A stretch of DNA of 64,000 nucleotides, from positions 1-64,000 of the forward strand of contig NZ_JNIO01000007.1 in assembly GCF_000702545.1 (NCBI RefSeq). The letters are read 5' to 3'. This document shows, one piece after another, positions 5,590-64,000 of the stretch. The notes below the pieces were generated by a model. That model did not search any database. It saw nothing but the letters and a program-made list of their open reading frames with translations, and had not been told where the DNA came from. The position numbers were made by a program, and so were the translations under genes. This DNA comes from Selenomonas sp. AB3002. GTDB taxonomy: Bacteria > Bacillota > Negativicutes > Selenomonadales > Selenomonadaceae. The stretch's first letter is position 1. Each line of letters starts with the position of its first letter.

Positions 5590-5592
5590 AGA

Positions 5593-7827: not shown

Positions 7828-7831
7828 GACC

Positions 7832-16629: not shown

Positions 16630-17380
16630 GGGCAATGACCTCCTTTGCCAGATCCATATAGACTTCCGAACCTCTGGATTTCTTGTCGTAGGCGATAATG
16701 GGCTGCCCATAGGAGGGAGCCTCAGACAGTCTCACCGTACGGGGAATGATGGTCTTATACATCTTGTCCCCGAAGTTCTCCCTGACCTCTGCCACCACCT
16801 GCTCCGAAAGGCGGGTGCGGGAATCGTACATGGTCATGAGCACGCCCTCTACCTCCAGATTGGCGTTGAGGTTGTTCTTCACCAGTCCGATGGTATTCAG
16901 CAGCTGCACCACACCCTCCAGGGCGTAGAACTCGCACTGGATAGGCATCAGCACAGAGTCAGCCGCCGCCAGTGCATTCAGGGTCAGAAGCCCCAAGGAG
17001 GGAGGGCAGTCCAGGATGATGTAGTCATAATCATCCCGCACTGCATCCAGTGCCTTTTTCAAGCGTGTTTCACGTGAAATAGCCGCTACCAGCTCCACCT
17101 CTGCCCCTGCCAGATTGATATTGGCAGGCAGCACATCAACCTTGAACTCCGTCTGCACCAGAGCATCCTTCGCATCCACCCCGCCCATAAGTACATGGTA
17201 GATGGTTTTCTCCAAGGCAGATTTATCTATGCCCAGACCGCTGGAAGCATTCCCCTGAGGGTCGCAGTCCACCAGCATGGTCTTCTTTTTCTTAGCCGCC
17301 AAACAAGCCGCCAGATCAACCGCCGTGGTAGTCTTGCCCACGCCGCCTTTCTGATTGGCTATCGCGATAATCTTGGCCAC
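16610..17380 (-). CDS. parA: Chromosome partitioning ATPase ParA (Soj)
   Basis: This Walker-type ATPase has the deviant Walker A KGGVGKTT close to its N-terminus, DCDPQGNASSG and the Walker B-like YDYIILDCPPSLG. There is no N-terminal DNA-binding extension, so it is the chromosomal Soj type. The start is probably the GTG at 17378-17380, with an AAGGG-like site before it; a GTG at 17389 is also in frame. It forms an operon with parB (overlapping ends). The neighbourhood lacks the usual rsmG/mnmG genes, so parAB seems to have moved from its common context. Confidence 0.95.
   Translation of the reverse strand: MAKIIAIANQKGGVGKTTTAVDLAACLAAKKKKTMLVDCDPQGNASSGLGIDKSALEKTIYHVLMGGVDAKDALVQTEFKVDVLPANINLAGAEVELVAAISRETRLKKALDAVRDDYDYIILDCPPSLGLLTLNALAAADSVLMPIQCEFYALEGVVQLLNTIGLVKNNLNANLEVEGVLMTMYDSRTRLSEQVVAEVRENFGDKMYKTIIPRTVRLSEAPSYGQPIIAYDKKSRGSEVYMDLAKEVIARDKQQA
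17066..17081. other. parS-like site inside parA (one mismatch)
   Basis: The site reads TGTTTCACGTGAAATA, 15 of 16 positions of the palindrome found elsewhere in the window. It lies in the parA coding sequence. Intragenic parS near parAB is known in other bacteria. Confidence 0.7.
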
Positions 17381-17511: not shown

Positions 17512-17811
17512 TTATCTGATGACTTTAGTGCCGTTTTCCTTGTCGAAGTTTTTCCAGAACTGTTCACGGGAGATGGCATTGCCCTGCTTGTCCGTGTAGA
17601 CATTCTCATTCAACAGGCCGCCCTTGTCCTGATAGCCGGAATACCCCATGCCGTGCAGCTTGTCGCGGACAGCGGCGCAGCTTTCGTATTCCTTGTCCAG
17701 CAGGCCACGCTTATAGAGCTGTGCGCTATCAGAAATAGTTTCTATTATAGTGCCGCCTGCTACTCCGTCCAGTTCCTCAAGATTCAATTTCTTGTTCTTG
17801 TCCACAGCCAT
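17512..17811 (-). CDS. Double-glycine-leader secreted protein (99 aa)
   Basis: The start ATG (17809-17811) has a purine-rich AAAGGACGG before it; an upstream ATG gives 8 extra residues without support. The leader MAVDKNKKLNLEELDGVAGG ends in a Gly-Gly site. Cleavage would release about 79 residues, rich in Lys, Gly and Asn, containing YSGYQDKGGLLNEN and no clear hydrophobic helix. The leader matches the (E/D)LD-x-VAGG type handled by C39 exporters and resembles the two 122-residue proteins at 52.9 and 59.1 kb. The mature part is not similar to theirs. A shared promoter motif lies upstream. No modification enzyme or immunity gene is recognisable nearby. The function is unknown. Confidence 0.75.
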   Translation of the reverse strand: MAVDKNKKLNLEELDGVAGGTIIETISDSAQLYKRGLLDKEYESCAAVRDKLHGMGYSGYQDKGGLLNENVYTDKQGNAISREQFWKNFDKENGTKVIR

Positions 17812-17934
17812 GATAATCCGTCCTTTCCTTAACAATCAAGTCTTCACTTTGCTGATTCGACAAAATGATGGATTCTCCTCTTTTCCTGGTGCATCGTCTG
17901 GAATTATAGTGTGCAATGTGTTTTTCAGCTTACA

Positions 17935-49564: not shown

Positions 49565-51946
49565 ATGATACATATCTTTGACGGGGCCATGGGCACCATG
49601 CTGCAGGCAGGGGGACTGAAGCCGGGAGCAGCACCGGAGCTAATGAACGTGGAGGCCCCTGATGTTGTGAAAGGCGTGCATCTGGCTTACCTGAAGGCCG
49701 GGTCTGATCATATCGAGACAAATACCTTCGGCGCCAGCCCTTTGAAGCTGGCCCACTATGGGCTCACGGACCGCATGGCTGAGCTGAACAAGGCTGCCGT
49801 GGCGGTGGCCAAAGAGGCCATTGCAGAAGCTGGCGTGCAGGCTAAAGTAGTTGGCTCCATGGGACCCATTGGCCGCTTTATCGCCCCTCTGGGAGATCTG
49901 GACTTCGAAGAAGCATATCAGAACTATCTTGCTCAGGCCAAAGCTCTGGCCGAGGGTGGCGCAGATGCCCTGATTATCGAGACCTGCATCGACTTGCAGG
50001 AAATGCGGGCAGCTCTTTTGGCTGCCCATGAAGCGGCCCCTGCCCTGACTAAAATCTGCCAGTTCTCCTACAGCGAGGACGGGCGCACCGTGACAGGCAC
50101 CGACCCTCAGAGCGCCGCCATCTTGCTGGAAGCGCTGGGAGCGGATGTCATCGGTGTCAACTGCTCCCTGGGCCCTGAGCAGCTCCTGCCTGTGGTTAAA
50201 ACTCTGGCAGCCAACTGCCGGGTGCCCATCAGCGTCCAGCCCAACGCAGGCATGCCCTATCTGGAAAACGGGGAGACCAAGTTCCCCATGGGGCCCAAGG
50301 ACTTCGGCACCTGGGGACCGAAGCTCTTAGCAGCGGGCGCCACTTATCTCGGGGGCTGCTGCGGCACCACCCCGGAGCATATCAGAGCGCTGGCTGAGGC
50401 TGTGAAGGATAAGGAAGAACCTGCCAGGGACACCTCCCCCAGAAAACTCTGGCTCACCAGCCGCAGCAAGGCAGTCTGCATCGACAGCAGCCTGCCTACG
50501 GTGCTCATTGGCGAGCGCATCAACCCCACAGGCCGCAAGAAGCTGGCGGCAGAGATCAAGGAAGGCTCCTTCCTGTCCGTGAAGAAAGAAGCTCTGTGTC
50601 AGGTTAAAGCCGGGGCCCAGGTGCTGGATGTGAACATGGGGGTGGGCGGCATAGACCAGACCGCCGCCATGAAGAAAGCCGTGACGGAAATCGCCCAACT
50701 CACCGATGCCCCCCTGGCCATCGACACCAGCGACCCGGAGGCTCTTGAGGCAGGGCTGCGCGCCTACCCGGGCAGAGCCCTGATCAACTCTGTTTCCGCA
50801 GAGAAAGAACGACTGGAGAAATTCCTGCCCCTGGCGAAGAAATACGGCGCCGCCATCCTCTGCCTGCCCCTCACCGACGGAGGCCTGCCCAAGAGTGTGG
50901 AGGAAAGGCTGGCCCACGTCCATACCATCATCACCAAGGCAAAAGAGGCTGGCCTGACGGAGGGAGACTTCCTGGTTGATGCCCTGGTCATGACTCTTTC
51001 CGCTGACGAAAAGGCCGCCCGCTCCGTCTTTGAAACCCTGCGTCAGGTGACGGCCCAGGGACTGCCCACCACCATGGGCCTTTCCAATATTTCCTTCGGC
51101 CTGCCCAACCGGCCCCTTATCAACGCCACTTTCTTCTCCATGTGCCTGGCCGCCGGCCTTACGGCCCCCATCATGAATCCCTATGATGAGAAGATGCAGG
51201 AGGCCCTCTCTGCCGCCGCAGCCCTCCTGGGCAAAGACCCCTGCGGCCTGAAGTACAGCCAGAACGAGGCAAATCTGGCCGTGCCCAAGGCGGCAGCTGC
51301 CATGAAAACCACCGACCTGCCTGTACTGGAAGCTCTGAAGCAGACGGTTATTTCCGGTGAGAAGGACGAAGTGGTGCCCCTCATCGACAAGGCACTGGCC
51401 GAAGGACATGACCCCAACACCATCACGGAAAAAGCCCTCACCGCTGCCATGACGGACATCGGCGAGGACTTCGGCGCAGGCCGCATGTTCCTGCCCCAGG
51501 TGCTGCTCTCTGCAGAGACCATGAGGGAAGCCTTCAACCATTTGCAGGAAGCCGCCCCGGAGACAGAAACCGTGAAGAAGGGTACCGTGGTGCTTGCCAC
51601 CGTCAAAGGCGACGTCCACGACCTGGGCAAGAATATCGTGGGAGCACTCCTCAAGAACTCCGGCTTCGAGCTCATCGACCTGGGCCGTGATGTAGACAGC
51701 GAGGAGATTGTGAAGGCCGCCATTGAAAAACAAGCTGATATCGTAGGCCTCTGCGCCCTCATGACCACCACCATGGTGCAGATTGACAAGGTCATCGCCG
51801 ACCTCAGGGAGGCCGGCTCCAAGGCCAAGGTCATGGTAGGCGGCGCCTGCCTCACCCAGGACTACGCCGACAGCGCCGGAGCCGATGCCTATGCCAAAGA
51901 TGGCGTGGCAGCGGTTAAGCTGGCAGAAAAACTCATAGAGAAATAA
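49565..51946 (+). CDS. metH: Cobalamin-dependent methionine synthase (homocysteine, folate and B12 domains)
   Basis: This 793-residue enzyme transfers a methyl group from methyltetrahydrofolate to homocysteine. The Hcy domain (about 1-285) has Zn ligands GVNCSLGPEQ and GGCCGTTPEHI. The pterin-binding domain (about 310-570) has LIGERINPTGRKKLA and VLDVNMGVGG. The B12 domain (about 580-793) has the cobalamin-ligating DVHDLGKNIV. The usual activation domain is absent and is encoded separately at 47933. GAGGAAG precedes the ATG. A long open frame on the opposite strand is a coding shadow. Confidence 0.95.
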   Translation: MIHIFDGAMGTMLQAGGLKPGAAPELMNVEAPDVVKGVHLAYLKAGSDHIETNTFGASPLKLAHYGLTDRMAELNKAAVAVAKEAIAEAGVQAKVVGSMGPIGRFIAPLGDLDFEEAYQNYLAQAKALAEGGADALIIETCIDLQEMRAALLAAHEAAPALTKICQFSYSEDGRTVTGTDPQSAAILLEALGADVIGVNCSLGPEQLLPVVKTLAANCRVPISVQPNAGMPYLENGETKFPMGPKDFGTWGPKLLAAGATYLGGCCGTTPEHIRALAEAVKDKEEPARDTSPRKLWLTSRSKAVCIDSSLPTVLIGERINPTGRKKLAAEIKEGSFLSVKKEALCQVKAGAQVLDVNMGVGGIDQTAAMKKAVTEIAQLTDAPLAIDTSDPEALEAGLRAYPGRALINSVSAEKERLEKFLPLAKKYGAAILCLPLTDGGLPKSVEERLAHVHTIITKAKEAGLTEGDFLVDALVMTLSADEKAARSVFETLRQVTAQGLPTTMGLSNISFGLPNRPLINATFFSMCLAAGLTAPIMNPYDEKMQEALSAAAALLGKDPCGLKYSQNEANLAVPKAAAAMKTTDLPVLEALKQTVISGEKDEVVPLIDKALAEGHDPNTITEKALTAAMTDIGEDFGAGRMFLPQVLLSAETMREAFNHLQEAAPETETVKKGTVVLATVKGDVHDLGKNIVGALLKNSGFELIDLGRDVDSEEIVKAAIEKQADIVGLCALMTTTMVQIDKVIADLREAGSKAKVMVGGACLTQDYADSAGADAYAKDGVAAVKLAEKLIEK

Positions 51947-51988
51947 AAGACAGCAAAAGTTGCCTGACGAATCGAAAACGGCGGTAAA

Positions 51989-52004
51989 TGTTTCACGTGA
52001 AACA
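51989..52004. other. parS site in a terminator hairpin after metH
   Basis: A perfect TGTTTCACGTGAAACA is the apex of a long hairpin (51975-52019) with AAAACGGCGGTA and matching arms plus a T run. Near-identical hairpins follow the three leader-peptide copies. Confidence 0.92.
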
Positions 52005-52043
52005 TCTACCGCCGTTTTTATAATGCAATATATCGCAGCCACC

Positions 52044-52448
52044 TTACTGCGGCAATGTACCTAGCAAAGCCGGATTTACGGACAGCAACCGTAAAAGGTT
52101 TGATATCGCCCTACTGGGCAGCACATCGCCGTTCTCGTATTTCTGAAAAGCCCTCTTGCCACCACCCAGGATAATTCCAGCTTGAACCTGGGTCAGTTTC
52201 AAGCGCTTGCGGATAGAACGAATTTCCTCCGGCAGAAGCAAATGCTCCGCCTCAGCTTTGAGCACCTTGATTTCTTTGTCGTAGACCTTCAAATCCTCCT
52301 GCGTAAAAGTAGCCTCACACTCTTCCCCTGCAGGATACCAGCCTGGCATATTGAAAGTCCTGCTCCTCCCCTGGTAGGTTATGGTAAAGGGACGAATATC
52401 CCTCCTAAGTTCTGCTCCTGTCTCAACGTCATACATCACATCTTCCAT
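52044..52448 (-). CDS. mqsA: MqsA-like antitoxin (HTH)
   Basis: This 134-residue protein has a C-terminal helix-turn-helix typical of MqsA (RKRLKLTQVQAGIILGGGKR, AFQKYENGDVLPSRAISNLL). Its N-terminus (FTITYQGRSRTFNMPGW) lacks the CxxC zinc pairs of classical MqsA. It lies 9 nt downstream of the MqsR-like toxin and would repress the operon. Confidence 0.8.
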   Translation of the reverse strand: MEDVMYDVETGAELRRDIRPFTITYQGRSRTFNMPGWYPAGEECEATFTQEDLKVYDKEIKVLKAEAEHLLLPEEIRSIRKRLKLTQVQAGIILGGGKRAFQKYENGDVLPSRAISNLLRLLSVNPALLGTLPQ

Positions 52449-52457
52449 GACAGCACC

Positions 52458-52760
52458 TCATTTCTCCTTAAAGGACAACAAGTCAAACTCGGTAAGTATT
52501 CCCTGAGTAAACTTTATATACACCATGTATCCTTTATATGGAACATGATAAACATCCTGCCATATCCTATGATTGTTATAGGAAGTCTTCGACTTATAGA
52601 AATGCTTCGGCTACATGGATTCTACCGCCTGCAAGATATCCCTGCGTTCAAAGCCCATAGCAGCAGCCCCAGACAAGGCAGACTGCTTTATGCCGTAATC
52701 AGAATGCTTGAAAGAATTCAGATCATATGTAGGCTTGTATTTATCCAAGACATTTGGCAT
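52458..52760 (-). pseudogene. mqsR: MqsR-like toxin interrupted by an in-frame amber codon
   Basis: The frame begins MPNVLDKYKPTYDLNSFKH. After AMGFERRDILQAVESM it meets TAG (52611-52613), then continues in the same frame PKHFYKSKTSYNNHRIWQDV...VYIKFT...DLLSFKEK to a TGA. The second part matches the MqsR core (FYKS...IWQDVY...SFKEK), which contains catalytic residues. Without suppression the toxin is inactive, while the antitoxin is intact. Confidence 0.8.
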
Positions 52761-52867
52761 ACTCTCCACCTCACCCCTATTATAAACCATAATGGTGTAT
52801 TGTTTCAATAACAAGAATGCTGATGCCTACCTATCGGAAACATTTCAAAAAACTTTTAAGATATTCT

Positions 52868-52900
52868 GTAATACTTTCCCCGCCGGTGCGTATGTATAGA
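52868..52900 (+). promoter_or_regulatory. Candidate ECF promoter: GTAAT-N16-CGTATGTATAGA
   Basis: GTAAT (52868-52872) and CGTATGTATAGA (52889-52900) are 16 bp apart, about 50 bp upstream of the leader-peptide gene. The element is shared with the copies at 13717, 17935 and 59059. Confidence 0.65.
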
Positions 52901-52945
52901 CAGAAAACAAAAAACAACAAACAAGACAACCACCGAAGGGAGTAG

Positions 52946-53314
52946 ATGAAAATGAAGAACGCAATGATCAACAAGAAGCTGAATGATTTTGAACTGGATT
53001 TCGTAGCCGGTGGGACTCTTACAGAAGTCAATCAGCTGGCAGACGCTTTCGCCAAGAAGGGCGGCACCTTCGGAGAAGTCGTGGCAGAGATCCACAGCGC
53101 CTTGAGCAGCAAGAGCGGCGTGGCCGGTCCGGTCAACATCCTGCTGCGGGAGGCTGTAGGCAAGGGCCTGAGCCAGCTTGGCATCTCCCATGACCTGAGC
53201 GTAGGCGTGCTTGGCACCGGCTTCATGTCCAAGGACAACAAGTATTCTTACAATGGCAAGAGCATCTCCCATGCAGATGTCCTCAAGATGATTGAAGCTG
53301 CAAAAGTTGCTTGA
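52946..53314 (+). CDS. Double-glycine-leader secreted protein, copy 1 (122 aa)
   Basis: The leader ends KKLNDFELDFVAGG at residue 23. A mature chain of 99 residues follows (TLTEVNQLADAFAKKGGTFG...VGVLGTGFMSKDNKYS...). The second ATG (52952) has better spacing from AAGGGAG and may be the true start. The mature part is amphipathic, without Cys. C39-type processing by the NHLM exporter is inferred. It is almost identical to the gene at 59130. The function (bacteriocin, signal or surface protein) is unknown, and no immunity gene is recognised. Confidence 0.8.
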   Translation: MKMKNAMINKKLNDFELDFVAGGTLTEVNQLADAFAKKGGTFGEVVAEIHSALSSKSGVAGPVNILLREAVGKGLSQLGISHDLSVGVLGTGFMSKDNKYSYNGKSISHADVLKMIEAAKVA

Positions 53315-53367
53315 GATTTTTACATATAAGATGCGTCTTTGATACATGACTGAGAAACGGCAGTAAA

Positions 53368-53383
53368 TGTTTCACGTGAAACA
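53368..53383. other. parS site in the leader-peptide gene terminator
   Basis: A perfect TGTTTCACGTGAAACA lies in a hairpin at 53355-53398 with AAACGGCAGTAAA and matching arms followed by TTTTT. Confidence 0.92.
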
Positions 53384-53696
53384 TTTACCGCCGTTTTTAG
53401 CATGGAAAACAGCTCAGAGGAGCTTTTGCAGGTAAAACACCTATGACAAGCGAATATAACATATTACTAACTCTCTGCCACGAGCAGAATACATAAAAGC
53501 GATACCGGAGAAAGATGGTGTGATACTCATGGACAGACCGGAAAAAAATGAAGCCAGCAGGCTTGCGCTGCTGGAGCAGGATAAATTCAATCAAACCGAA
53601 AATGACTTTCCCTTTGTCTCTGTTTCCCAGCGGATTCAGGCACAGGCATAAAAGCATCCCCATAAGACAGCTGTAATTTATGCCCCCAACCAGGAA

Positions 53697-56654
53697 ATGA
53701 CTTACAGTGAGTTAGATGCCCAGAGCAACATCGTGGCCAATTTCCTGCAAAGGAAACTGGCTGCCGGGAAGGAGCAGCATGGTGGCAACCCTTGCCGTGA
53801 TATCGTCATAGGGGTATTGCTGGAGCGCACAGTTTGGGCTTATGTTGCCGAGCAGGGCATCCTGAAGGCCGGGGCAGCTTTTCTGCCCTTCGTCACTTCC
53901 TACCCTGACGAAAGGATATCTTTCTGCCTGGAAGATGCCGGGGCGCCTTTGCTCATCACCTCTGCCAGGATAAAAGCTGCCCGCACTGACCTAAAGGGGA
54001 AGTTTGAACTCCTCACCATAGAGGAAATCCTGGCCTCTGCCGATACCACGCCGCTGTCTACAGAGATTGGCCCCCATGATCTGGCTTATGTGATCTATAC
54101 CTCCGGCTCCACCGGCAAGCCCAAGGGGGTTATGATTGAGCAGCACAGTTTTGCCAACTACATGGAACGGGATGAAAAATCCATAGAAATCATGCACTTC
54201 GTCCAAGAGGGACGGGTATCCCTGGCCATGGCCGCCTTTTCCTTTGACGTTTCCATTGTGGAAGAATTTGTCCCTCTCTCCAATGGCTGCACTGTATGCA
54301 TAGCCACTGAAGATGAGATACACGACCCATTTCTCCTGTCAAAGCTCATACAGTCCGCAGGGGTCAATGGCATAACCTGCACCCCCACTTTCCTTCTCAG
54401 CATCCTGAACATACCTGAATGCCGGGAAGCTTTGAAACAGGTGACCTTTTACGATGTGGGAGCAGAGGCCTTCCCTGCCGGGCTTTTCAGCAGGCTGCGG
54501 GCGCTGTGCCCTGACAGTGTCATCATGAATGTCTACGGCCCCACTGAATGTACCATGGGCTGCTCCTCTGCCCTCATGGAAGCAGAGGGAGAAATCGTCG
54601 TAGGCGGCCCCATGGTGAATACGAAGTTTTATGTGGTGGACCAGCAGGGAGACTTCCTGCCCCTGGAGGAAAAAGGCGAGCTCATTATCTGCGGGGCTTG
54701 TGTGGGCCGGGGCTATATCAATATGCCTGAACGCACCGCCAAGGCCTTTTTCACCTGCAACGGGCACAGGGCATATCACAGCGGTGATCTGGCCTCCTGG
54801 ACCAGGGATGGCAAGATAAGGATCCATGGGCGCATCGACAATCAAATCAAACTGCGCGGGTTCCGCATAGAGCTGGATGAAATAGAAAAAGTCATGGGTG
54901 AACACCCTGCCATAGACTCCTGCGCGGTGAAGGTCCTGCAGCGGGCAGGCAAGTCTGATTATCTGGCAGGCTACTTCACAGCCTCTGCCGAAGGAGCTCC
55001 TGTCACAGAGGAACTCCTTGCCTTCATGAAGACGCGACTGCCTGATTACATGATTCCCACCGCCATGCTGCAGCTGGAAACGATGCCCCAAACTGTGAAC
55101 GGCAAAATCGACCGCAAGCAGCTGCCCCAGATTGAACCTGCCCATGGTGAGAGCAAATATGTCCCTCCCCGCAATGACACCGAGCGCTATATCTGCCACA
55201 CCTTCGCAGAGGTACTGCATCTGGCCCCGGAGGCCGTGAGCATCGAGGATGATTTCTTCCAGCTGGGAGGCGACTCTCTCTCCAGCATGGTGCTGGTCTC
55301 AAAGCTGATGGACAAGGGCATTTCCAGCGCTGATGTATTTTCGCTGCGCACAGTAGAACGCCTGGCAGCCCTTTTGGCAGAACGAGGTTATGATGAATCC
55401 CTGGACGAGCGTGAGGACAAGGAGCGGAAAAAGCCCCATAGATTATCTCCCATGCAGATAGAGATGGTGGACAATCAATTTGCCAAGCTCCAATCCACCA
55501 TGTTCAACAATATGTCCTACTTCTTCCGCTTTTCCAGGAAAACAGACCCGGATAAATTGCAAAAAGCCGTCAATGAGGCCCTTCGCAATCACCCGGCCCT
55601 GGCTATGAAGATAAGCTTCAATGATGCAGGGGAACTGGTGCAGACTTATACCCCGGAACTTCTCCAGGAAATCAGCTATGAATATATGAGCGACCTGGAA
55701 ATCATCAGACTCTCAAGGGATCTGATCCGCCCCTTCAATATCTTCAAAGAACCTCTGGTCAGAGTGAGGCTTTTCAAATCACCCCGCTATATTTACATGT
55801 TCTTTGATGTGCATCACCTGGCCATGGATGGCTCCTCCCTGGGCCTCCTCATGTCGGACATCATCAGAGCTTATCGCGGGGAGCCCCTGCCCCGTGATTA
55901 CTACTGCACTTATCTGGCCAAGGAAGAAAAGCTGCGCGCATCCCCTCAGTATGAGGAAGACAAATCATATTTCCTCTCAACCTACGGCGGCTATGACTGG
56001 TGCAGCATCCCCGAGCCTGACAAGGGCAACACGTCTGACCTGAACCTGGAAGCAGATTCGCGGCAGATCAAGCTGCCCTTTGACGAGACTGACCTGGCCG
56101 AGGCAGAAGAGCGCCTGCACGCTTCCAGAAGTGTCATAGCCATAGCCTCAGCCATTCAGGCCCTCTACGAATTTTCCGGCCAAAAGCACATCATGACCAA
56201 CTGGATTTTCAACAATCGTCTGGGAGGATATGCAGCCAATTCCGTAGGCATGCTGATAAAGAATCTGCCTGTGGGGGTACACATGGAGCAGATAGACAGC
56301 ATGGAAGCCCTGCTGGCCGAAGTAAAGCAACAGGTAACAGAGGGAATCACCCATTCCAGCTACGACTACTTCTTTGCCAATTACAAAGCCTACCAGGTTG
56401 CCCCCATGGAGGTGAACTATCAGCTCAACATCAACGCCGATGAGCTTGATGAGCTGCAGCCCTTCTATCTGCCGCTGCCCAACGAATACCGTGCTCCGGG
56501 AACACTGCTGGAGCTGGAATTCCTGGAGAACAATGACAACTCAGGCTACCTTGAATCAGAATTTGAGTGGGCAGGCAATATCTTCTCCCGGAACCGCATG
56601 GTAAGATTCCACAATCTGTATATGGAAACTTTTGTGAAATTTATCTTGGGGTGA
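53697..56654 (+). CDS. Non-ribosomal peptide synthetase, adenylation-thiolation-condensation
   Basis: Core motifs seen: A3 YTSGSTGKPKGV, A5 NVYGPTECT, A7 YHSGDLASW, A8 GRIDNQIKLRGFRIELDE, A10 NGKIDRKQL. The carrier domain is DDFFQLGGDSLSS (about 525-540), and a C-terminal condensation domain has HHLAMDGSS. There is no thioesterase or reductase. By eye-alignment to GrsA the specificity residues read about D-V-V-T-Y-V-V-M-G-K; I assign no substrate. The gene originally began near 53520/53529 (MDRPEKNEASRLALLEQD), but a TAA at 53649-53651 interrupts the start of the A domain (RIQAQA, stop, KHPHKTAVIY). Translation from the ATG at 53697 would lose A1. The MATE gene follows 4 nt downstream. Confidence 0.88.
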   Translation: MTYSELDAQSNIVANFLQRKLAAGKEQHGGNPCRDIVIGVLLERTVWAYVAEQGILKAGAAFLPFVTSYPDERISFCLEDAGAPLLITSARIKAARTDLKGKFELLTIEEILASADTTPLSTEIGPHDLAYVIYTSGSTGKPKGVMIEQHSFANYMERDEKSIEIMHFVQEGRVSLAMAAFSFDVSIVEEFVPLSNGCTVCIATEDEIHDPFLLSKLIQSAGVNGITCTPTFLLSILNIPECREALKQVTFYDVGAEAFPAGLFSRLRALCPDSVIMNVYGPTECTMGCSSALMEAEGEIVVGGPMVNTKFYVVDQQGDFLPLEEKGELIICGACVGRGYINMPERTAKAFFTCNGHRAYHSGDLASWTRDGKIRIHGRIDNQIKLRGFRIELDEIEKVMGEHPAIDSCAVKVLQRAGKSDYLAGYFTASAEGAPVTEELLAFMKTRLPDYMIPTAMLQLETMPQTVNGKIDRKQLPQIEPAHGESKYVPPRNDTERYICHTFAEVLHLAPEAVSIEDDFFQLGGDSLSSMVLVSKLMDKGISSADVFSLRTVERLAALLAERGYDESLDEREDKERKKPHRLSPMQIEMVDNQFAKLQSTMFNNMSYFFRFSRKTDPDKLQKAVNEALRNHPALAMKISFNDAGELVQTYTPELLQEISYEYMSDLEIIRLSRDLIRPFNIFKEPLVRVRLFKSPRYIYMFFDVHHLAMDGSSLGLLMSDIIRAYRGEPLPRDYYCTYLAKEEKLRASPQYEEDKSYFLSTYGGYDWCSIPEPDKGNTSDLNLEADSRQIKLPFDETDLAEAEERLHASRSVIAIASAIQALYEFSGQKHIMTNWIFNNRLGGYAANSVGMLIKNLPVGVHMEQIDSMEALLAEVKQQVTEGITHSSYDYFFANYKAYQVAPMEVNYQLNINADELDELQPFYLPLPNEYRAPGTLLELEFLENNDNSGYLESEFEWAGNIFSRNRMVRFHNLYMETFVKFILG

Positions 56655-56658
56655 GAAA

Positions 56659-57996
56659 ATGGATATAAAATTATCTGATCACTTTACCTACAAAAAAATG
56701 CTGCTTTTTGCCGCTCCTACCATTGGCACTGTACTGATTGCCATAACCTACGATATTATCGATGGCTTCTTCGTGTCAAACTATATCGGCAAGACAGCTT
56801 TCGCAGCAGTCAATATCATCTACCCCTTCCAGCTCATGCTTTCCGTCATCGGCTATATGTTTGGCACAGGCGGCAGCGCTCTCATAGCTTCGGAGCTGGG
56901 ACGCGGCAAAGAGGAACGGGCCCGGCAGATTTTCACCATGCTCATCAAGACAGCTTTCACCATCGGTGTCGCTTTGGCAGTTTTGGGTTTCATCTTCCTG
57001 CCGGAGATAGGCGAGCTGATCGGTGCTACCCCCAGCATCATGGAATATGGCCTGCCCTACGGGCGAACCCTTTTCCTCTTCCTGCCCGTTATGATTGTAG
57101 GCTATGCTTTCCAAAGCATACTGATAACTGCCGAGAAACCCCAATTGGGATTTTATCTTTCCATTGCCAACATGTTCAGCAACATCATCTTTGACTATCT
57201 CTTCATCGTGGTATTTCAATGGGAAATGGTGGGCGCTGCAGTTGCTACGGGCATCGGTGCCTGCATCAACGGGCTCATCCCCCTCTACTACTTCTCCCGC
57301 CCCAACAGCAGCTGCCTGCACTTCACCTCCTACAAGTTCGATGGCAAAGCCCTGTTTGCTACCTGCTCCAACGGTTTGTCGGAAATGGTGGATGACATGG
57401 CCATCTCCGTCGTTTTCGTCTTTTACAACATACAGCTGCTGCGCTTCATGGGCGAAGACGGAGTGGCCGCCTTTGGTGTGGTGGTGTTCGTCGAGGGTAT
57501 CTTCACTGCCATATTCGCCGCCTTATGCCTGGAAGCTAATTCCATTGTAGGCTACCACTTCGGCGCACAAAACCACCTGGAATTGAGAAGCCTGCTAAAA
57601 AAGGGCATCGTCCTCAATTTAGGCTTTGGCATACTGATGTTTGTCCTGGCACAGATAACTGCCGGCTGGATAGCAGAAGTTTATGTGGGCTATGATCCGT
57701 CAGTCTGTGCCTTGGCCGAGGAAGCTCTGAAAGCCTTTTCTCTGGCCTTTATCCTGCAGGGCTTCAATATCTATGCTGCGGCATATTTCACCGGGCTGAA
57801 CAACGGTAAGATCTCGGCCGTCATTGCCATTTGCCGTACCTTTCTCTTTCAGACCCTGGCAATTTTTGGCCTGCCGCTGATCTTTGGCGCCAAGAGCTTA
57901 TGGGTATGCCAGGCGGTAGCGGAGGTCGTTTCAGCAGGAGTGTCTATTGCCCTGCTGTATATCTATAGGCAGGACTACCTCGGTGAGAAAAACTGA
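56659..57996 (+). CDS. MATE family efflux transporter
   Basis: This 445-residue, 12-span protein has the MATE two-bundle layout. It begins FTYKKMLLFAAPTIGTVLIA, with FGTGGSALIASELGRGKEER in the first half and CLEANSIVGYHFGAQNHLEL in the second. It starts 4 nt after the NRPS stop, so it probably exports the NRPS product or gives self-resistance. It is intact, unlike the NRPS frame. Confidence 0.92.
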   Translation: MDIKLSDHFTYKKMLLFAAPTIGTVLIAITYDIIDGFFVSNYIGKTAFAAVNIIYPFQLMLSVIGYMFGTGGSALIASELGRGKEERARQIFTMLIKTAFTIGVALAVLGFIFLPEIGELIGATPSIMEYGLPYGRTLFLFLPVMIVGYAFQSILITAEKPQLGFYLSIANMFSNIIFDYLFIVVFQWEMVGAAVATGIGACINGLIPLYYFSRPNSSCLHFTSYKFDGKALFATCSNGLSEMVDDMAISVVFVFYNIQLLRFMGEDGVAAFGVVVFVEGIFTAIFAALCLEANSIVGYHFGAQNHLELRSLLKKGIVLNLGFGILMFVLAQITAGWIAEVYVGYDPSVCALAEEALKAFSLAFILQGFNIYAAAYFTGLNNGKISAVIAICRTFLFQTLAIFGLPLIFGAKSLWVCQAVAEVVSAGVSIALLYIYRQDYLGEKN

Positions 57997-58106
57997 TGTT
58001 TTCCCGGCCAACCAGGGTTCTGCTTACTTGGCTGTTGATTGGCCTGTTGGTCTTGGAGGGCATGCCCTCCATACGCTGGCTGTAAAGTTCGGCAAAGCTA
58101 GGGCGA

Positions 58107-58227
58107 TTTGAGCGTGAGGGTTCTTGGCACCGGCTTCATGTCCAAGGACAACAAGTATTCCTACAAGGGCAAGAGCATCTCCCATGCAGATGTGCTCAAG
58201 ATGATTGATGCAGCCAAAGTGGCATGA
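58107..58227 (+). pseudogene. Truncated third copy of the 122-residue leader protein
   Basis: It encodes only the last 39 residues, from DLSVRVLGTGFMSKDNKYSY to KMIDAAKVA, and is followed by the same parS terminator as the full copy at 59130, to which it is closest. It has no leader or start. The 57997-58106 gap has no gene. Confidence 0.9.
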
Positions 58228-58249
58228 CTGACATAGAAACGGCGGTAAA

Positions 58250-58265
58250 TGTTTCACGTGAAACA
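58250..58265. other. parS site in the terminator of the truncated copy
   Basis: A perfect TGTTTCACGTGAAACA lies in a hairpin at 58237-58282 (GAAACGGCGGTAAA arms, T run), duplicated with the coding fragment. Confidence 0.92.
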
Positions 58266-58339
58266 TTTACCGCCGTTTTTTTATCTGCGCCCCAAGGAAC
58301 TGCTCTCCTGGGTTTCATTGTAAAAGATAGTACGGACAA

Positions 58340-58708
58340 TTAACTCTTTTGCCCCAAGGTAAAAGCCAGGGCATTTGTCACATACTGATTCAGGCTTACA
58401 CCTTCCCGTTTGGAAACCTGCGCCAGTGCCCTGTGGAGGGTCTTGGGCAGCCTAATTATGAATTTGCCACTATATTCTTCCTGCTCGACAGGCTCGGGAA
58501 TCTTCATGCCCCTCTCCAGCATACTGGAAAGCCATTCTTCCTTGGCCTCCTGAATATTGGCATAAGCCTCGTCCAAACTTTCTCCGTCGCTCATGCAGCC
58601 AGGCAGAAGAGGGATTGATACAAAAAATCCTCCTCCCTCTTCTTCCTTTATTCTCTTCACTTCCACAGGGTAATCAAGGTCCATGTAATATGCCAGTTCC
58701 TTTGCCAT
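58340..58708 (-). CDS. hicB: HicB family antitoxin
   Basis: The ATG at 58706-58708 opens a 122-residue protein with the HicB fold (GGFFVSIPLLPGCMSDGESL, DEAYANIQEAKEEWLSSMLE) and a ribbon-helix-helix C-terminus (FIIRLPKTLHRALAQVSKRE, GVSLNQYVTNALA). It follows hicA after 10 nt. It lies inside the segment bracketed by the leader-protein repeats. Confidence 0.92.
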   Translation of the reverse strand: MAKELAYYMDLDYPVEVKRIKEEEGGGFFVSIPLLPGCMSDGESLDEAYANIQEAKEEWLSSMLERGMKIPEPVEQEEYSGKFIIRLPKTLHRALAQVSKREGVSLNQYVTNALAFTLGQKS

Positions 58709-58718
58709 GTCTTTCACC

Positions 58719-58958
58719 TCATTTATCCAAATCCTGCAACAGCTCCGCAATCTTGCGGGCATAAATCTTCTTTACCCTGCCATCGTGGACAGGTACTATG
58801 ATGGTATCATAGCCAGGACAGATCAGTTTATGATGACTGCCCCCTCCCCGGGGAGGCCTAACCTCTACCCCATAACCAGCCAACAGGGAAACTATTTTAT
58901 TCCACGGCAAATCCTTCCCCTGGGCAAGAGCAAGCAATTTCTTCTCCAATGTAGACAT
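58719..58958 (-). CDS. hicA: HicA family toxin
   Basis: This 79-residue mRNA interferase has the classical GGGSHHKLICPGYDTIIVPV motif with the catalytic His. It is intact and paired with hicB. It is a different subtype from the HicA at 42799. Confidence 0.92.
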   Translation of the reverse strand: MSTLEKKLLALAQGKDLPWNKIVSLLAGYGVEVRPPRGGGSHHKLICPGYDTIIVPVHDGRVKKIYARKIAELLQDLDK

Positions 58959-59058
58959 ACCACACCTCCCTCGAAATTATGATATCATATCTAGTATCAC
59001 TATTTCAACAGCCAAGATGCAGACTGCCACCCATATCAAAAAACTTTTAAGGTAATGT

Positions 59059-59091
59059 GTAATACTTCACCCCTCGGTGCGTATGTATAGA
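59059..59091 (+). promoter_or_regulatory. Candidate ECF promoter: GTAAT-N16-CGTATGTATAGA
   Basis: GTAAT (59059-59063) and CGTATGTATAGA (59080-59091) are 16 bp apart. The flanks are partly different from the copy at 52868, but both boxes are identical. Confidence 0.65.
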
Positions 59092-59129
59092 CAGAAAAAC
59101 AAAACACAGACAACCACCGAAGGGAGTAG

Positions 59130-59498
59130 ATGAAAATGAAGAACGCAATGACCAACAAGAAGCTGAACGATTTTGAACTGGATTTCGTAGCCGGTGGGAC
59201 TCTTACAGAAGTCAATCAGCTGGCAGACGCTTTCGCCAAGAAGGGCGGCACCTTCGGAGAAGTCGTGGCAGAGATCCACAGCGCCTTGAGCAGCAAGAGT
59301 GGCGTGGCCGGTCCGGTCAACATCCTGCTGCGGGAGGCTGTAGGCAAGGGCCTGAACCAGCTTGGCATCTCCCATGACCTGAGCGTAGGCGTGCTCGGCA
59401 CCGGCTTCATGTCCAAGGACAACAAGTATTCCTACAAGGGCAAGAGCATCTCCCATGCAGATGTGCTCAAGATGATTGATGCAGCCAAAGTGGCATGA
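59130..59498 (+). CDS. Double-glycine-leader secreted protein, copy 2 (122 aa)
   Basis: It differs from copy 1 at only a few residues (I8T, S to N in GLNQLG, YNG to YKG, E to D near the end). It keeps the leader KKLNDFELDFVAGG, the ribosome binding site and the promoter. An ATG at 59136 may be the true start. Near-identity suggests recent duplication or gene conversion. The function is unknown; C39-dependent export is inferred. Confidence 0.8.
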   Translation: MKMKNAMTNKKLNDFELDFVAGGTLTEVNQLADAFAKKGGTFGEVVAEIHSALSSKSGVAGPVNILLREAVGKGLNQLGISHDLSVGVLGTGFMSKDNKYSYKGKSISHADVLKMIDAAKVA

Positions 59499-59520
59499 CT
59501 GACATAGAAACGGCGGTAAA

Positions 59521-59536
59521 TGTTTCACGTGAAACA
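59521..59536. other. parS site in the leader-protein terminator
   Basis: A perfect TGTTTCACGTGAAACA is in a hairpin at 59508-59551 with AAACGGCGGTAAA and matching arms, then TTTTT. Confidence 0.92.
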
Positions 59537-59653
59537 TTTACCGCCGTTTTTAGCATAAAAAACAACGCTGGGAATATTTTGCATACATAAAAAGGCACCA
59601 CAGAAGAAACATTTCTCCTGCAGTACCTTTTTTCATGGCTCCTGTCTGAAATT

Positions 59654-62600
59654 TTATTTCATTTCCTGCCAGCTGCCCGTCTTCCTGTCGTAGCTGAATG
59701 TTCCATCTGCCAGCTGGAAGGTGGTGGCGCCGTGGCTGTCGTAGTTCTGGAGGGTGAGGGTTGAGCCGTCTTTCAGGGCGATGACCATGCTTCCGTCTTT
59801 CAGGCCGGTGGCCTGTGGGTTCAGGTCTTCCAGCTTTACGTTGTAAAGCATGACTTTGTCACCGTCGTTGGATTTGGTGATAAGGTCGGTGCCCTCGCCT
59901 TTGCCGAAGTATAACTCGTTGTAGCCGCTTCCTCCTTCGAGGACATCGTTGCCGCCTGCGCCGCCCCAGAGGGAGGTGCTGCCCTTGCCGCCTTTGATGG
60001 TTTCGGCTTCGCGGCCTCCTGCCAGGATGTTGTCTCCTGTCGAACCGGAGGCGTCTATGATCTCGATGCTGCTGCCCAGGTTTTCCAGCCAGACGCTGTG
60101 GTCTTCGCCGGATACTTTGAGGGTGTCCGTCTTGTCGCCGCCGAAGTAGTTGGTCACTTCCTCGTCGTAGGTGAAGGTGTTGGCCTGGCTGCCGGAGCCT
60201 ATCTTGGCTACGCCCTTGGCTTCACCGCTTACCCACTGGATTTTGTCGTTGGGCTTCAGTCCCTGGAGCAGCACCCTGGAGTTCTCCGTGGTGGATATTT
60301 CTACACCATTATTGGTGCCCCTTATATCCGTGATGGCGGAGCCAAAGAGGTTCAGCACGTCGCTATTGTCTTCGGTACCTGCGGCAAAGCCTGCTATGGT
60401 GTCCCTGCCGCTTTCGCCGAAGAAGAAGAATTCATCTCTGGCGTCTTTGGCACCGACTAGCAGGGCGTTGCCTGTGCCGCCCCAGAGGCTGGTGTCGCCA
60501 CCGCCTGAGACCAGGGTGGTCTTGCCGCTGCCGCCCATGAGGATGGTGTTGCCGGCTCCCCCGGTGACGCTGGCTATGTTTCTGAACTTGAAGGTATCCG
60601 AGAGGTCAACGATGAGGTCGTCCCCTACTTCCTTGAAGTTCAGCCCTGCGGAGCCTGTGCCGTAGTATACGTCTGCATAGTCTGCTTCTTTGATGTTGGC
60701 AGTCTGCCCCTTTTCGATGGCCGCTACTTTCGCTTCTCCGATAAGGAGCTCTGCCGCGTTGGTATTGTTGTTCTTTGCTATGGAGCCCAGGGTCATCCTG
60801 CTGCCTCCACTCTTCAGCACTGCCTCCTTTCCGTCATAGCTTAGGGTCAGATTTTCTGCCACTGCAGTATCCATCAGGAGGATGCTGTCAGCTTCGCTTT
60901 CGTCAAAGCCTGCCTTGAAGCCTGTGACTTCGTCCCTGGCTCCTGCGGTGCCGAAGCCCACGGCGATGCTGCTGCCGCTGAGGTGAAGCTCATTCTGGCC
61001 GGCACCGCCTGTCACGCTGTCCCCTTCTCCTGCGAAAATGACATCCCTGCCCGCTCCTCCCATGAGGAGGTCTTTCGCGTCGCCGTTCTGGCTGCCGATG
61101 AGGACCAGGGGCTTTGTCTCCGAGGAGGCGTCCAGGGTGCCGCCGTCTTCGCCTGTCCAGCCCACGTTGGTTTTCTTGCCCTTGCTGTCCAGGATGGTCA
61201 CGGCGTATGCGCTGCCTGTGCCTGTGCCGGAGGATACGTCCACTTCGCCGCCGGAGTCTTTGCCGCCGTAATTTATGGTGCCTTCGCCCACGTGGAAGTC
61301 GGAGTAGTCGGTGACGGCGGCACCGATAGCTACTTCGTCCTTGCCGTAGGTGAAGCCTTCTACTTTATTGGTGAAGCCTGCCGTGGTCTTGAAAGTGTTC
61401 TTGCCTGTACCTGCCACCAGCTTGCCATTTTCGTTGCTGGACTCAAAGGTGTTCTTGCCAGAGCCGCCTGTGAGGACGTTCTCTCCTGTGCCGAAGTCTT
61501 TGAGCTCGTTTTTGCTGCCGGAGCCTGCGGTGACGTGGTGGTCGCCGCTGCCGCCCACGGTGGCGGTGAGGTTGCCGTCGCCTCCTGTGATGCGGGAGTC
61601 GGCATTGCTGTAGACGGCCACTTCACTGCTGCCGGAGCCTGCGGTGACGTTCACAGCATTATTCACAGGAGTCTCAGAGGTTCCCGTGCCTACCTGGGTG
61701 CGCCCTCTTGCCTCGCTGGTGTCGATGTTCCAGTCCACGCCGTTGGTGTCGGCAATGTCCAGTTCATGCCTGCCGGAGTCGGACTTTGCCCTGTAGGTCA
61801 GGGAACTGTCGGTGGTCTCGATGGTGGCCACGGCCTTGCCAGCATCGGTGGTGACGTTGCCGTGTGAGTCAAGCTGCGTGCCGTCCACCACGGAGTTCAG
61901 GTCTGTGCCGCCTACGGTGGCACTGCCGGGCTCCAGGCTCACGCCTGCATCGCCTGTGCTGACAGGAGCGTTGGCAGCGCTTCCGTCCCAGGTGGCAGTG
62001 AAGCTTTTCTCACTGCCCAGGGTGTAGGATTTGGTGGTGGCCTTGGCATCGCCGTCGGTATAGCCGATGACCAGCTTTCCGTCTTCTGCAGTGTAGGTAG
62101 TGGTGAGGTCGCCCTTGGTGACCGTCACCTTGTCGCCGTTCCGGAGGCCTGCCACCTGGCTGCCCTGGGCGTCTTTATAGACGGTGAGGCCACTATGGGA
62201 AGTGCTTGCCACGGCGAAGGTGAAGCCGTCCACAGTCACAGTCTCGCCCTTTTGGTCGAGGCTGACTTCGACGGCGCCGTCCTGATTCCGGAAGGTGATG
62301 CCGTTCCTGGAGGTGATGGCGGTGAATTCTGTGCCATCCACGGTAACTTCGCTGCCTGTGAAGGTGGATTCGAAGGTCACGGCTTCGCCGGATTCCAGTC
62401 CCGTGATGGTTGAGATTTTGTTGGGGCTGGTGTCGTCTGCCGTGTAGGTCACGCCGTTTCCGCTGCCGGTGAGGGTGACTTTCGCCCCGTTGAGGGTGAG
62501 GGTGCCATTGCCGGTGGTGGTGACAGAGCTTCCTGCGGCTGTGCTGAAGTTGCCGTTGCTATCCGAGGTGGTGACACTGCCTTCCAAGACCTTCAGCAAG

Positions 62601-64000
62601 TTCCCTGTTTCCGTGACAATATTGTCCTGCACGGAGAAAGCCTTGCCCGAAAAGCTGCTTTCATTCAAGGTAAAGACTGCTGTCCCCGTTGTGTCCGTGA
62701 TGGTTGCTTCGGCCTCCGTCAGGTCGATGCTGATGTCCGGCTCCACTTCACCCGTTACGGTTACTTTTTTGGGTGTTGCGCTGCCGTCGATGGTGATGAC
62801 CGCCCGGTCAGCTTCGACCCGCCGGCCTTCCCCGTCATAGTATTCCTTTTCTTGGATGTCCTTGACAGGATCTATTTCGCTGGAGGTAAAACCCTTTACG
62901 CCGCTGAGTTCTGCGCCGCTTGCCGGGCTTTCCGATTCGTCTGCCGGGTCAAAGCCTCCCGCAGCCGGCTGCATCGTGACGCTGATGGGGGTGTCCCCGT
63001 CACGTTTGTAGATGCGTTTGGTTGTCGCTCCATCCTGAGTCTGGATGACTGTGATCTTGGCTGCATCGGAGCTGAGTTTGTATGTCACAGTGCAGGTATT
63101 GTCACCGGTGGTGAAGGATGCCCCTGCCGGCAGAGCGCTTCCGTCTGCCGCGAGGATGCTGCCCTCCTCCCCGACGGAGATGGGTATGCTGCCGTTGTTG
63201 GTGAGCGTACCAAGGCCGCTTACCTCAATGGCTTCATTCCGGTCAAGGATGACTGCTCCGGCGGTGAGTTTTGCTTTGCCATTATTGTGGTCTACTACAG
63301 TGGCATTTGCCGCTGCCGTATAGGTTGTTCCTCCTACCGTAACTGTTTCACCAGTATCAAGGGTGACTGCTCCTCCCACAAATCCGCTTGTGGCATCGAT
63401 TGTGGCTCCACCTACTGCCGCTTTGTAGGTTGCATTTCCCGCTGCAATAGCCTCTCCCTGGTCGAGAAGAACTGTTCCTGTGATGAGTTTTGCATTGCCA
63501 CTGTTGTAGTCCAGGGTGGCTCCGTTGCTTCCTGCCGTGTAGGTTGTTTCCCCTACCTTCAGAGTTTTGCCCAAATTGAAGGAGACTTCTCCTGCGGTCA
63601 GGTTTGCATTGCCACTGTTATAGTCCAAGGTGGCTCCACTCTCTGTTGCTGTGTAAGTTGCATCTCCTACTTCAACAGCTTCTCCACGGTCAAGGATTAC
63701 TTCTCCGGCGGTGAGTTTTGCCTTGCCACTGTTATAGTCCAGGGTGGCTCCGTTGCTTCCTGCCGTGTAGGTTGTTTCCCCTACCTTCAGAGTTTTGCCC
63801 GAAGTGAAGGAGACCTCTCCTGCGGTCATGTTTGCGTTGCCGCTGTTATAGTCCAGAGTGGCTCCACTCTCTGTTGCTGTGTAAGTTGCATCTCCTACTT
63901 CAACAGCTTCTCCACGGTCAAGGATGACTGCTCCGGCGGTGAGTTTTGCCTTGCCACTGTTGTAGTCCAGGGTGGCTCCGTTGCTTCCTGCCGTGTAGGT
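59654..64000 (-). CDS. Very large repetitive RTX-like exported protein, N-terminus outside the window
   Basis: The frame is open through the right edge (over 1440 codons seen). The N-terminal visible part is made of 38-residue repeats. The middle is Thr/Ser/Gly-rich beta structure (residues like GNGTLTLNGAKVTLTGSGNG). The C-terminal ~550 residues contain RTX/hemolysin-like Gly-rich turns (LMGGAGRDVIFAGEGDSVTG, ILMGGSGKTTLVSGGGDTSL, GGNDVLEGGSGYNELYFGKG) and a C-terminal cap (DGTFSYDRKTGSWQEMK). Cys residues are lacking. This suggests a surface or secreted adhesin using a type I-like pathway with a C-terminal signal. The exporter at 2.8-10 kb is a possible partner but not proven. Confidence 0.85.
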   Translation of the reverse strand, partial: TYTAGSNGATLDYNSGKAKLTAGAVILDRGEAVEVGDATYTATESGATLDYNSGNANMTAGEVSFTSGKTLKVGETTYTAGSNGATLDYNSGKAKLTAGEVILDRGEAVEVGDATYTATESGATLDYNSGNANLTAGEVSFNLGKTLKVGETTYTAGSNGATLDYNSGNAKLITGTVLLDQGEAIAAGNATYKAAVGGATIDATSGFVGGAVTLDTGETVTVGGTTYTAAANATVVDHNNGKAKLTAGAVILDRNEAIEVSGLGTLTNNGSIPISVGEEGSILAADGSALPAGASFTTGDNTCTVTYKLSSDAAKITVIQTQDGATTKRIYKRDGDTPISVTMQPAAGGFDPADESESPASGAELSGVKGFTSSEIDPVKDIQEKEYYDGEGRRVEADRAVITIDGSATPKKVTVTGEVEPDISIDLTEAEATITDTTGTAVFTLNESSFSGKAFSVQDNIVTETGNLLKVLEGSVTTSDSNGNFSTAAGSSVTTTGNGTLTLNGAKVTLTGSGNGVTYTADDTSPNKISTITGLESGEAVTFESTFTGSEVTVDGTEFTAITSRNGITFRNQDGAVEVSLDQKGETVTVDGFTFAVASTSHSGLTVYKDAQGSQVAGLRNGDKVTVTKGDLTTTYTAEDGKLVIGYTDGDAKATTKSYTLGSEKSFTATWDGSAANAPVSTGDAGVSLEPGSATVGGTDLNSVVDGTQLDSHGNVTTDAGKAVATIETTDSSLTYRAKSDSGRHELDIADTNGVDWNIDTSEARGRTQVGTGTSETPVNNAVNVTAGSGSSEVAVYSNADSRITGGDGNLTATVGGSGDHHVTAGSGSKNELKDFGTGENVLTGGSGKNTFESSNENGKLVAGTGKNTFKTTAGFTNKVEGFTYGKDEVAIGAAVTDYSDFHVGEGTINYGGKDSGGEVDVSSGTGTGSAYAVTILDSKGKKTNVGWTGEDGGTLDASSETKPLVLIGSQNGDAKDLLMGGAGRDVIFAGEGDSVTGGAGQNELHLSGSSIAVGFGTAGARDEVTGFKAGFDESEADSILLMDTAVAENLTLSYDGKEAVLKSGGSRMTLGSIAKNNNTNAAELLIGEAKVAAIEKGQTANIKEADYADVYYGTGSAGLNFKEVGDDLIVDLSDTFKFRNIASVTGGAGNTILMGGSGKTTLVSGGGDTSLWGGTGNALLVGAKDARDEFFFFGESGRDTIAGFAAGTEDNSDVLNLFGSAITDIRGTNNGVEISTTENSRVLLQGLKPNDKIQWVSGEAKGVAKIGSGSQANTFTYDEEVTNYFGGDKTDTLKVSGEDHSVWLENLGSSIEIIDASGSTGDNILAGGREAETIKGGKGSTSLWGGAGGNDVLEGGSGYNELYFGKGEGTDLITKSNDGDKVMLYNVKLEDLNPQATGLKDGSMVIALKDGSTLTLQNYDSHGATTFQLADGTFSYDRKTGSWQEMK
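63220..64000 (-). repeat. Tandem 114-bp (38-aa) repeats in two alternating types
   Basis: Units alternate between type A (VILDRGEAVEVGDATYTATE) and type B (VSF..GKTLKVGETTYTAGSN), each ending GATLDYNSG. The higher-order period is therefore 228 bp. At least five clear units plus degenerate ones are seen, continuing past the window edge. Near-identity at DNA level implies recent expansion and possible assembly collapse. Confidence 0.9.

Follow-up and report, generated by a model that had tools for sequence, protein, structure and literature searches.

The cassette that is repeated on both sides of an NRPS-MATE-HicAB segment is interpreted here, with a probability of roughly 60%, as a self-contained unit of a dispersed family whose copies recombine and erode while their hairpins are kept, and not as the two ends of a gene block. 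The window, i.e. the whole stretch of 64,000 nucleotides under analysis, contains two complete cassettes, A (52840-53399) and B (59031-59551), which lie in direct orientation about 6.18 kb apart and have in common a gene for a 122-aa double-glycine-leader protein and a terminal hairpin tipped by parS. The earlier note had described complete cassettes at both sites, a truncated copy (58102-58280 in the present analysis), the parS hairpins and an intervening NRPS-MATE-HicAB segment; all of these features were confirmed, the four genes of the segment by domain matches of their proteins. A fourth trace of the cassette near metH (51951-52018), comprising tail codons and a hairpin, was absent from that note. 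The region contains the following features:

51951-51967, plus strand: metH-side relic of a cassette gene, comprising the stop codon, the four codons in front of it and two bases of one more codon (15-nt identity to the G004 gene)
51975-52018, plus strand: relic hairpin behind metH, tipped by parS (51989-52004)
52044-52448, minus strand: MqsA-type antitoxin gene (PF15731 69 bits, TIGR03830 99.8 bits, above cut-off)
52611-52814, minus strand: mqsR-like toxin gene (PF15723 weak, E 0.08, below cut-off)
52840-52945, plus strand: putative promoter and 5' UTR region of cassette A, with TGTAATACT and CGTATGTAT as found among aligned complete copies
52946-53314, plus strand: cassette A gene, 122-aa double-glycine-leader protein
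53355-53399, plus strand: terminator-like hairpin of cassette A, tipped by parS (53368-53383)
53520-56654, plus strand: NRPS gene, A-PCP-C (PF00501 AMP-binding, PF00550 PP-binding, PF00668 Condensation)
56659-57996, plus strand: MATE exporter gene (PF01554, TIGR00797, above cut-off)
58102-58227, plus strand: cassette gene without its 5' part, 41 terminal codons and the stop codon remaining
58234-58280, plus strand: terminator-like hairpin at the end of the fragment, the next one after MATE, tipped by parS (58250-58265)
58340-58762, minus strand: HicB antitoxin gene (PF15919 48.6 bits, PF05534 45.7 bits)
58719-58958, minus strand: HicA toxin gene (PF07927 30.6 bits, cut-off 27)
59031-59129, plus strand: putative promoter and 5' UTR region of cassette B
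59130-59498, plus strand: cassette B gene, 122-aa double-glycine-leader protein
59505-59551, plus strand: hairpin of cassette B, tipped by parS (59521-59536)

For comparison, five other genomes of the genus were used (G001 to G005, all of other species, one genome per species), G000 being the source of the window. With A as query, the matches to B (E 1.4e-213) and to the 58.1-kb fragment (E 5.4e-45) were far beyond chance, and a perfect TGTTTCACGTGAAACA lies in the terminal hairpin of A, B and the fragment alike. Upstream of the gene, TGTAATACT was found in all eight aligned complete copies and CGTATGTAT in seven of them, and this stretch presumably acts as the promoter; the predictions of a sigma-70 scan did not include the promoter region of A. 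The description of A and B as almost identical holds for the coding sequences, which agree in 353 of 366 nt (96.4%; nine codons changed synonymously, four nonsynonymously), but not for their surroundings, since the promoter stretch shows 86% identity over 73 nt and the distance from stop codon to parS amounts to 53 nt in A versus 22 nt in B. Across the entire cassette, the identity is 88%.

The longest identical run of A and B comprises 131 nt inside the coding sequence, where differences were found at offsets 22, 38, 170 and 226 and at nine positions from 266 onward. This corresponds to four differences in the first 265 nt versus nine in the last 101 nt (Fisher p 0.0018, with the split at position 265 picked post hoc, once the differences were known). 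A permutation test with 61 polymorphic sites gave p 0.019 for the longest run shared by A and B, the only one of 21 pairs below 0.05, where about one such value is expected by chance; all copies but that of G002 were included. The fragment and B form a patchwork, too: they match without a single difference over 155 nt (58126-58280 in the fragment, 59397-59551 in B), but 5 of the 17 fragment positions that start at 58109 deviate from B, i.e. the left edge of the fragment has diverged. Exchange between copies is our reading of this patchwork; alternatively, the fragment may have arisen when part of B's tail was duplicated recently. Altogether, the alignments suggest that cassette copies probably swap sequence with one another, and the length and similarity of the copies suffice for homologous recombination. 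Short-tract recombination of this kind may keep the copies similar in part.

Two further full copies were found on another contig (C8:432351 and C8:1131389), which identifies the cassette as a dispersed family. Both end in strong hairpins without parS, the terminal stretches folding at -33.9 and -32.0 kcal/mol (z -5.0 and -6.4). In total, G000 contains four full copies and the 58.1-kb fragment, not counting the relic behind metH. G004 has three copies, G002 one and a weak partial match, and G001 one, which is split across two contig ends that overlap exactly; a search of G003 and G005 found none. One copy of G004 (C79) lies behind metH, as does the relic in G000, a second (C99) has the same neighbours as C8:432, and the third (C96) shows 99.7% identity to the C8:1131 locus over 692 nt (L036 1979-2670, L039 9229-9920). 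The metH regions of the same species pair are 87% identical, and G000 is about 7.4 kb longer directly behind the shared 692-nt stretch. Relatives of the protein occur in 18 of 151 examined genomes of the family, 4 of these 18 belonging to the genus, and form tandem groups in several of them.

Behind metH of the window, CAGCAAAAGTTGCCTGA begins 4 nt past the stop codon (51944-51946) and is followed by the CGGCGGTA-parS hairpin. The first 15 nt of CAGCAAAAGTTGCCTGA are the 3' end of the metH-side cassette gene of G004, and the outer arm CGGCGGTA is the same in the metH-side hairpin, in B and in the fragment. The 17-mer of the relic occurs exactly once in the window, and with up to three mismatches five places were found versus 0.33 expected. 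A GGGAGAGC...GCTCTCCC hairpin stands behind metH in G001, G003 and G004, but not behind metH of the window. The simplest reading of this arrangement would be a deletion from just past metH into the final codons of a cassette. An nhmmer search over 19 sequences with a profile of nine rows (the eight complete copies plus that portion of the G001 copy which lies on C9) did not detect the relic, which is short. It matched the eight complete copies, the 58.1-kb fragment and the G001 copy in both its halves, and apart from these known copies only one match was below E 0.05 (E 0.005), to another GG gene at 17.8 kb. The gene called metH here matched NCBIfam TIGR02082 with 526 bits, which is below the cut-off of this model, and the metH-activation-domain gene mentioned below matched PF02965 with 23.3 bits at a cut-off of 25.

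The 58.1-kb fragment, too, is read by us as an eroded cassette, the hairpin of which now stands behind the upstream gene, MATE. Judged from the two truncated copies, decay would proceed by deletions that begin directly after an upstream gene and extend into the cassette, so that the promoter and most of the gene are deleted and the hairpin stays, now trailing the upstream gene. Such erosion would have left tail codons and a hairpin after metH, and 41 codons and a hairpin after MATE. The starting unit would comprise its own promoter, the 122-aa double-glycine-leader gene and its own terminator, with several copies dispersed in the genus; new copies would arise by duplication, and selection may retain the hairpin as a terminator, as a ParB site, or as both.

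The earlier note had proposed a different reading, in which A and B bracket a block, recombination between these repeats could delete or amplify the NRPS-MATE-HicAB genes, the fragment looks like the scar of such an event and HicAB could stabilise the block. The direct orientation, the 6.18-kb spacing, the 131-nt identical run and the signs of exchange between copies would suit such an event, and an exchange between A and B leaving one full hybrid copy is possible in principle. For the same reason the fragment is not explained by it: two full copies that exchange leave a full hybrid copy and no fragment. Cassette copies on another contig and the interruption of the NRPS gene also speak against a block of this kind. 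The frame of the NRPS from 53520 contains an in-frame TAA at 53649-53651 and is open only from 53697, while the homologue in G001, 87% identical, is an uninterrupted ORF of 1045 aa.

On contig C38 of G001, other NRPS-like matches (32-34%) and another MATE (44%) come first; then follow the NRPS (87%), a MATE of which only the first 44 codons are present, a parS hairpin whose stem is different, the metH-activation-domain gene, further genes, a 281-aa ORF and, at the contig end, the 5' part of the cassette; the remainder of the cassette, parS and metH are found on C9. The NRPS of G001 is thus located upstream of the metH-activation-domain gene, and the sole cassette found on C38 lies at its far downstream end. 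G003 comprises a full MATE (84%) upstream of metH without an NRPS before it; behind this MATE stands a hairpin of the cassette type that lacks a gene, preceded by about a dozen bases that match, and a homologous 281-aa ORF adjoins metH with no cassette between them. The NRPS homologues found elsewhere are one at 50% on another contig of G003 and three at 30-35% in G005. Accordingly, in both G001 and G003, NRPS or MATE stands outside a cassette bracket.

G002 and G004 carry a cassette at or close to the same locus, and neither has an NRPS match at E 1e-100. G002 also lacks a metH match at E 1e-50, and in G004 metH is followed by the cassette, with the contig stopping at the last codon of the cassette. 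Since their flanks cannot reveal an excision, these two genomes fit both views, including a state with one remaining cassette, and a hybrid junction of A and B was not seen at the flanks of the relatives. The comparison of relatives, all of other species, for presence or absence of the block gave a divided result: the content of the region varies among them, but in G001 and G003 it does not appear to vary as one cassette-bounded block that was gained or lost. Loss or amplification by recombination remains compatible with the length and similarity of the repeats and the signs of exchange, while the cassettes as limits of the block are not supported by G001 and G003, and we consider the excision of a cassette-bounded block unlikely. 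The gene orders are best explained if NRPS-MATE is an older neighbour of metH, which would have been shuffled and partly lost, the flanking cassettes not being its boundaries. In general, similar direct repeats that flank a gene block need not mark its boundaries.

It could also be assumed that the cassettes are plain paralogues, conserved by selection on the protein and its dosage and multiplied by local duplication, with recombination playing no special part. The tree of the eight copies is indeed star-like, with only A and B (91/96) as well as C8_1131 and G004_C96 (99/97) grouped, and the codon changes between the copies of G000 and G004 are mostly synonymous. The 155-nt identical run of fragment and B next to a diverged left edge, and the greater divergence between A and B at the 3' end than in the central part, speak against paralogy alone, and this explanation of the whole pattern is doubtful.

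For the dispersed and eroding family preferred here, the hairpins are of particular importance. The 16-bp palindrome is the consensus of ParB/Spo0J-type parS, and G000 contains 14 perfect sites, compared to none for a reversed-pattern control. All 14 lie at C7:17454-75173 (dnaA at C7:146085), 13 of them in the window, and four of the 14 stem from hairpins of the cassette type. With their perfect palindromes, their clustering on the dnaA contig and a ParB-family gene nearby, they resemble chromosomal parS of the ParB/Spo0J type:

15640-16710, minus strand: ParB-family gene (PF02195, PF17762, TIGR00180, above cut-off)

As a raw count, 11 of the 13 window sites are located 0-53 nt past the stop codon of ORFs taken as genes. 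The four cassette hairpins, with folding energies of -25.9 to -33.1 kcal/mol (z -8.5 to -9.3; relic behind metH -28.4 kcal/mol, z -8.9), show a G+C-rich stem and a T run behind a gene and are thus predicted intrinsic terminators. A terminator pattern scan detected two of these four, and its total of 12 hits does not exceed the range of shuffled sequences (9.2, sd 3.3).

Unlike usual chromosomal parS, many sites of the genus stand at the tip of a terminator-like hairpin, and the outer stems of these hairpins vary. The genomes G000 to G005 contain 14, 6, 0, 7, 6 and 2 perfect sites, and at least five of six outer pairs next to parS are formed at 22 of these 35, a count that includes related sites whose outer stems are not independent, versus 17.6% in a control with flanks swapped between different sites. 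The mean folding energy of the genus sites was -23.0 kcal/mol versus -13.8 kcal/mol for the control, and 17 of the 35 lay below the 5th percentile of the control. Four more sites (C7:75158, one on C66 of G003 and two on C63 of G004) fold at -22.6 to -30.7 and are read by us as stems with a bulge; nine of the 35 are not hairpin-like, pairing poorly even with bulges allowed, and neither of the two sites of G005 reaches five of six pairs. In the genomes sampled outside the genus but within the family, parS-tipped hairpins are less common, as 7 of 39 sites reach this pairing versus 4.2% in the control (30 loci, one per genome, from 30 of 40 non-genus genomes with sites, after dropping sites at locus ends and identical stretches). 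Since the outer stems differ (CGGCGG, GGCTCGA, CCTGCA, GGGG and others), the parS hairpins are not one repeat copied everywhere.

Based on these sequences, we tentatively propose that in this genus parS and intrinsic terminator may have merged into one element, of which the gene for an exported protein would be one carrier; when the gene erodes, its hairpin could be kept for the end of the operon and for ParB loading, and a centromere-like zone could grow or be reshaped by the decay of cassettes. As the perfect parS at the hairpin tip lies within the parS zone of the dnaA contig, duplication of the cassette would multiply ParB-loading sites and offer a simple route to more of them on this contig. 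Should parS sites also serve as terminators, ParB loading and the termination of transcription would coincide at the same palindromes, which raises the question whether ParB loading affects termination or vice versa. In Neisseria and Haemophilus, DNA uptake sequences serve as terminators, two of them forming the stem. The hairpins described here are similar in that the stem of a predicted terminator incorporates a short sequence which has a second function. They differ in that this sequence is a single self-complementary parS at the tip, with a role in chromosome partition. The titles and abstract beginnings of the literature searched contained no description of parS within a terminator or hairpin.

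The parS sites of the genus, often but not always hairpin tips, lie at 17454-59536 of the window, at C7:75158 and in the loci L033, L034 and L076-L083. G002, the single genome of the genus without a perfect parS, carries on the minus strand (L038 13320-13355) a cassette hairpin whose outer arms are kept but whose parS core is degenerate (TGTTTCAAATGAAGCA). Among the other genomes, G033 and G010 contain 40 and 52 perfect sites, those of G033 in closely spaced groups on several contigs (e.g. C31:8-481).

The unit of promoter, gene and hairpin, together with a cassette between the same 281-aa ORF and metH in G001 and none found there in G003, could also point to an integron-like mobile gene cassette with the hairpin as recombination site. 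This is highly improbable: the scan of ten window proteins around the cassette gave no match to an integrase or transposase, and parS and terminator already account for the hairpin. An integron-type cassette was rejected because the C8 copies end in other hairpins, i.e. there is no shared recombination site. That repeats were collapsed or duplicated during assembly, as a draft of eight contigs and the breaks of G001 and G004 contigs inside a cassette might suggest, is practically negligible, given that many positions distinguish the copies and that each has flanks of its own within a single 348-kb contig.

Concerning the cassette protein, ten aligned sequences, including A and B, have L17, G22, G23 and T24 and a C-terminal G/N/Y/G pattern in common. 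L17, G22 and G23 are invariant and V20 nearly so, which corresponds to a GG cleavage motif; substrates of C39/PCAT transporters carry conserved hydrophobic residues at set positions before this motif. The leader end ELDFVAGG, with hydrophobic residues preceding GG, is like that of double-glycine leader peptides exported by C39 transporters, and the same genome contains an exporter of the C39 and NHLP type, as is known for NHLP/Nif11-type precursors:

2794-5589, minus strand: NHLP-type export ABC permease/ATPase (TIGR03797 734.2 bits, cut-off 709.4)
5593-7827, minus strand: exporter with C39 peptidase domain (TIGR03796 972.8 bits, cut-off 853.3; PF03412 99 bits)
7832-8833, minus strand: NHLP-type secretion (HlyD-like) protein (TIGR03794 226.2 bits, cut-off 156.2)

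Since the motif is shared by the ten aligned sequences and this system is encoded at 2794-8833, the cassette proteins are probably exported. The exporter at 5593-7827 is the likely processor of GG-leader proteins, and most likely the 122-aa product would be cut behind GG and exported via this NHLP-type C39 transporter at 2.8-8.8 kb. With low confidence, a bacteriocin-type activity outside the cell is favoured. Unlike NHLP/Nif11-type precursors, the cassette protein matches no curated precursor family above cut-off: neither TIGR03793 nor TIGR03798 (the Nif11 precursor model) gave an NCBIfam match at E<=0.1 for A or B, and in the Pfam scan no NHLP/Nif11 precursor model was matched by them. A CTB bacteriocin model reached E 0.089 with 13 of 32 bits. 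PMC2887384 gives TIGR03793 as the NHLP precursor model and states that precursors of the NHLP/Nif11 type may sit far away from export genes.

In contrast to the short and variable core of double-glycine precursors, a conserved domain of about 99 aa follows GG in the cassette protein. AlphaFold2 with seven close sequences gave a mean pLDDT of 61.9, which is too low for a fold search, and a PDB sequence search returned three matches, all with E 0.23. The literature searched contained no description of double-glycine bacteriocins of Selenomonas.

Two toxin-antitoxin pairs lie next to the cassettes. HicA and HicB domains in adjacent genes identify a HicAB pair, for which only one HicB homologue (50%, in G004) was found in the relatives at E <=1e-10, and a second pair, MqsRA (52044-52814), directly precedes cassette A. 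Compared to known HicAB and MqsRA modules, HicA, HicB and MqsA match Pfam above cut-off, while mqsR is interrupted here, with codon 67 followed by a TAG in frame; no such interruption affects mqsA, which has an open frame. A layout of truncated-cassette hairpin, minus-strand toxin-antitoxin pair and full cassette is repeated in the window (relic, MqsRA and A, around 52021-52845; fragment, HicBA and B, around 58281-59031). The metH-side cassette of G004 starts about 55 nt past metH with no such pair in between, and an AbiEii-type gene (PF08843; L039 8374-8763) lies upstream of the C8:1131 copy as well as of its G004 counterpart. A neighbour gene, putatively ykgJ, had no match in the Pfam scan, and the RTX-like neighbour (59654-63829) belongs to a repeated family and is uninformative for synteny.

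A profile search of G000 gave nine matches, including a weak one to the gene at 17512-17835 (E 0.006) and a group at C7:246.8-248.7 kb. In this part of the genome (L142 6458-8849, i.e. C7:246.4-248.8 kb, and L143), six small ORFs with GG-leader-like starts stand in a row, two of which are nearly identical and three of which have counterparts in G001.
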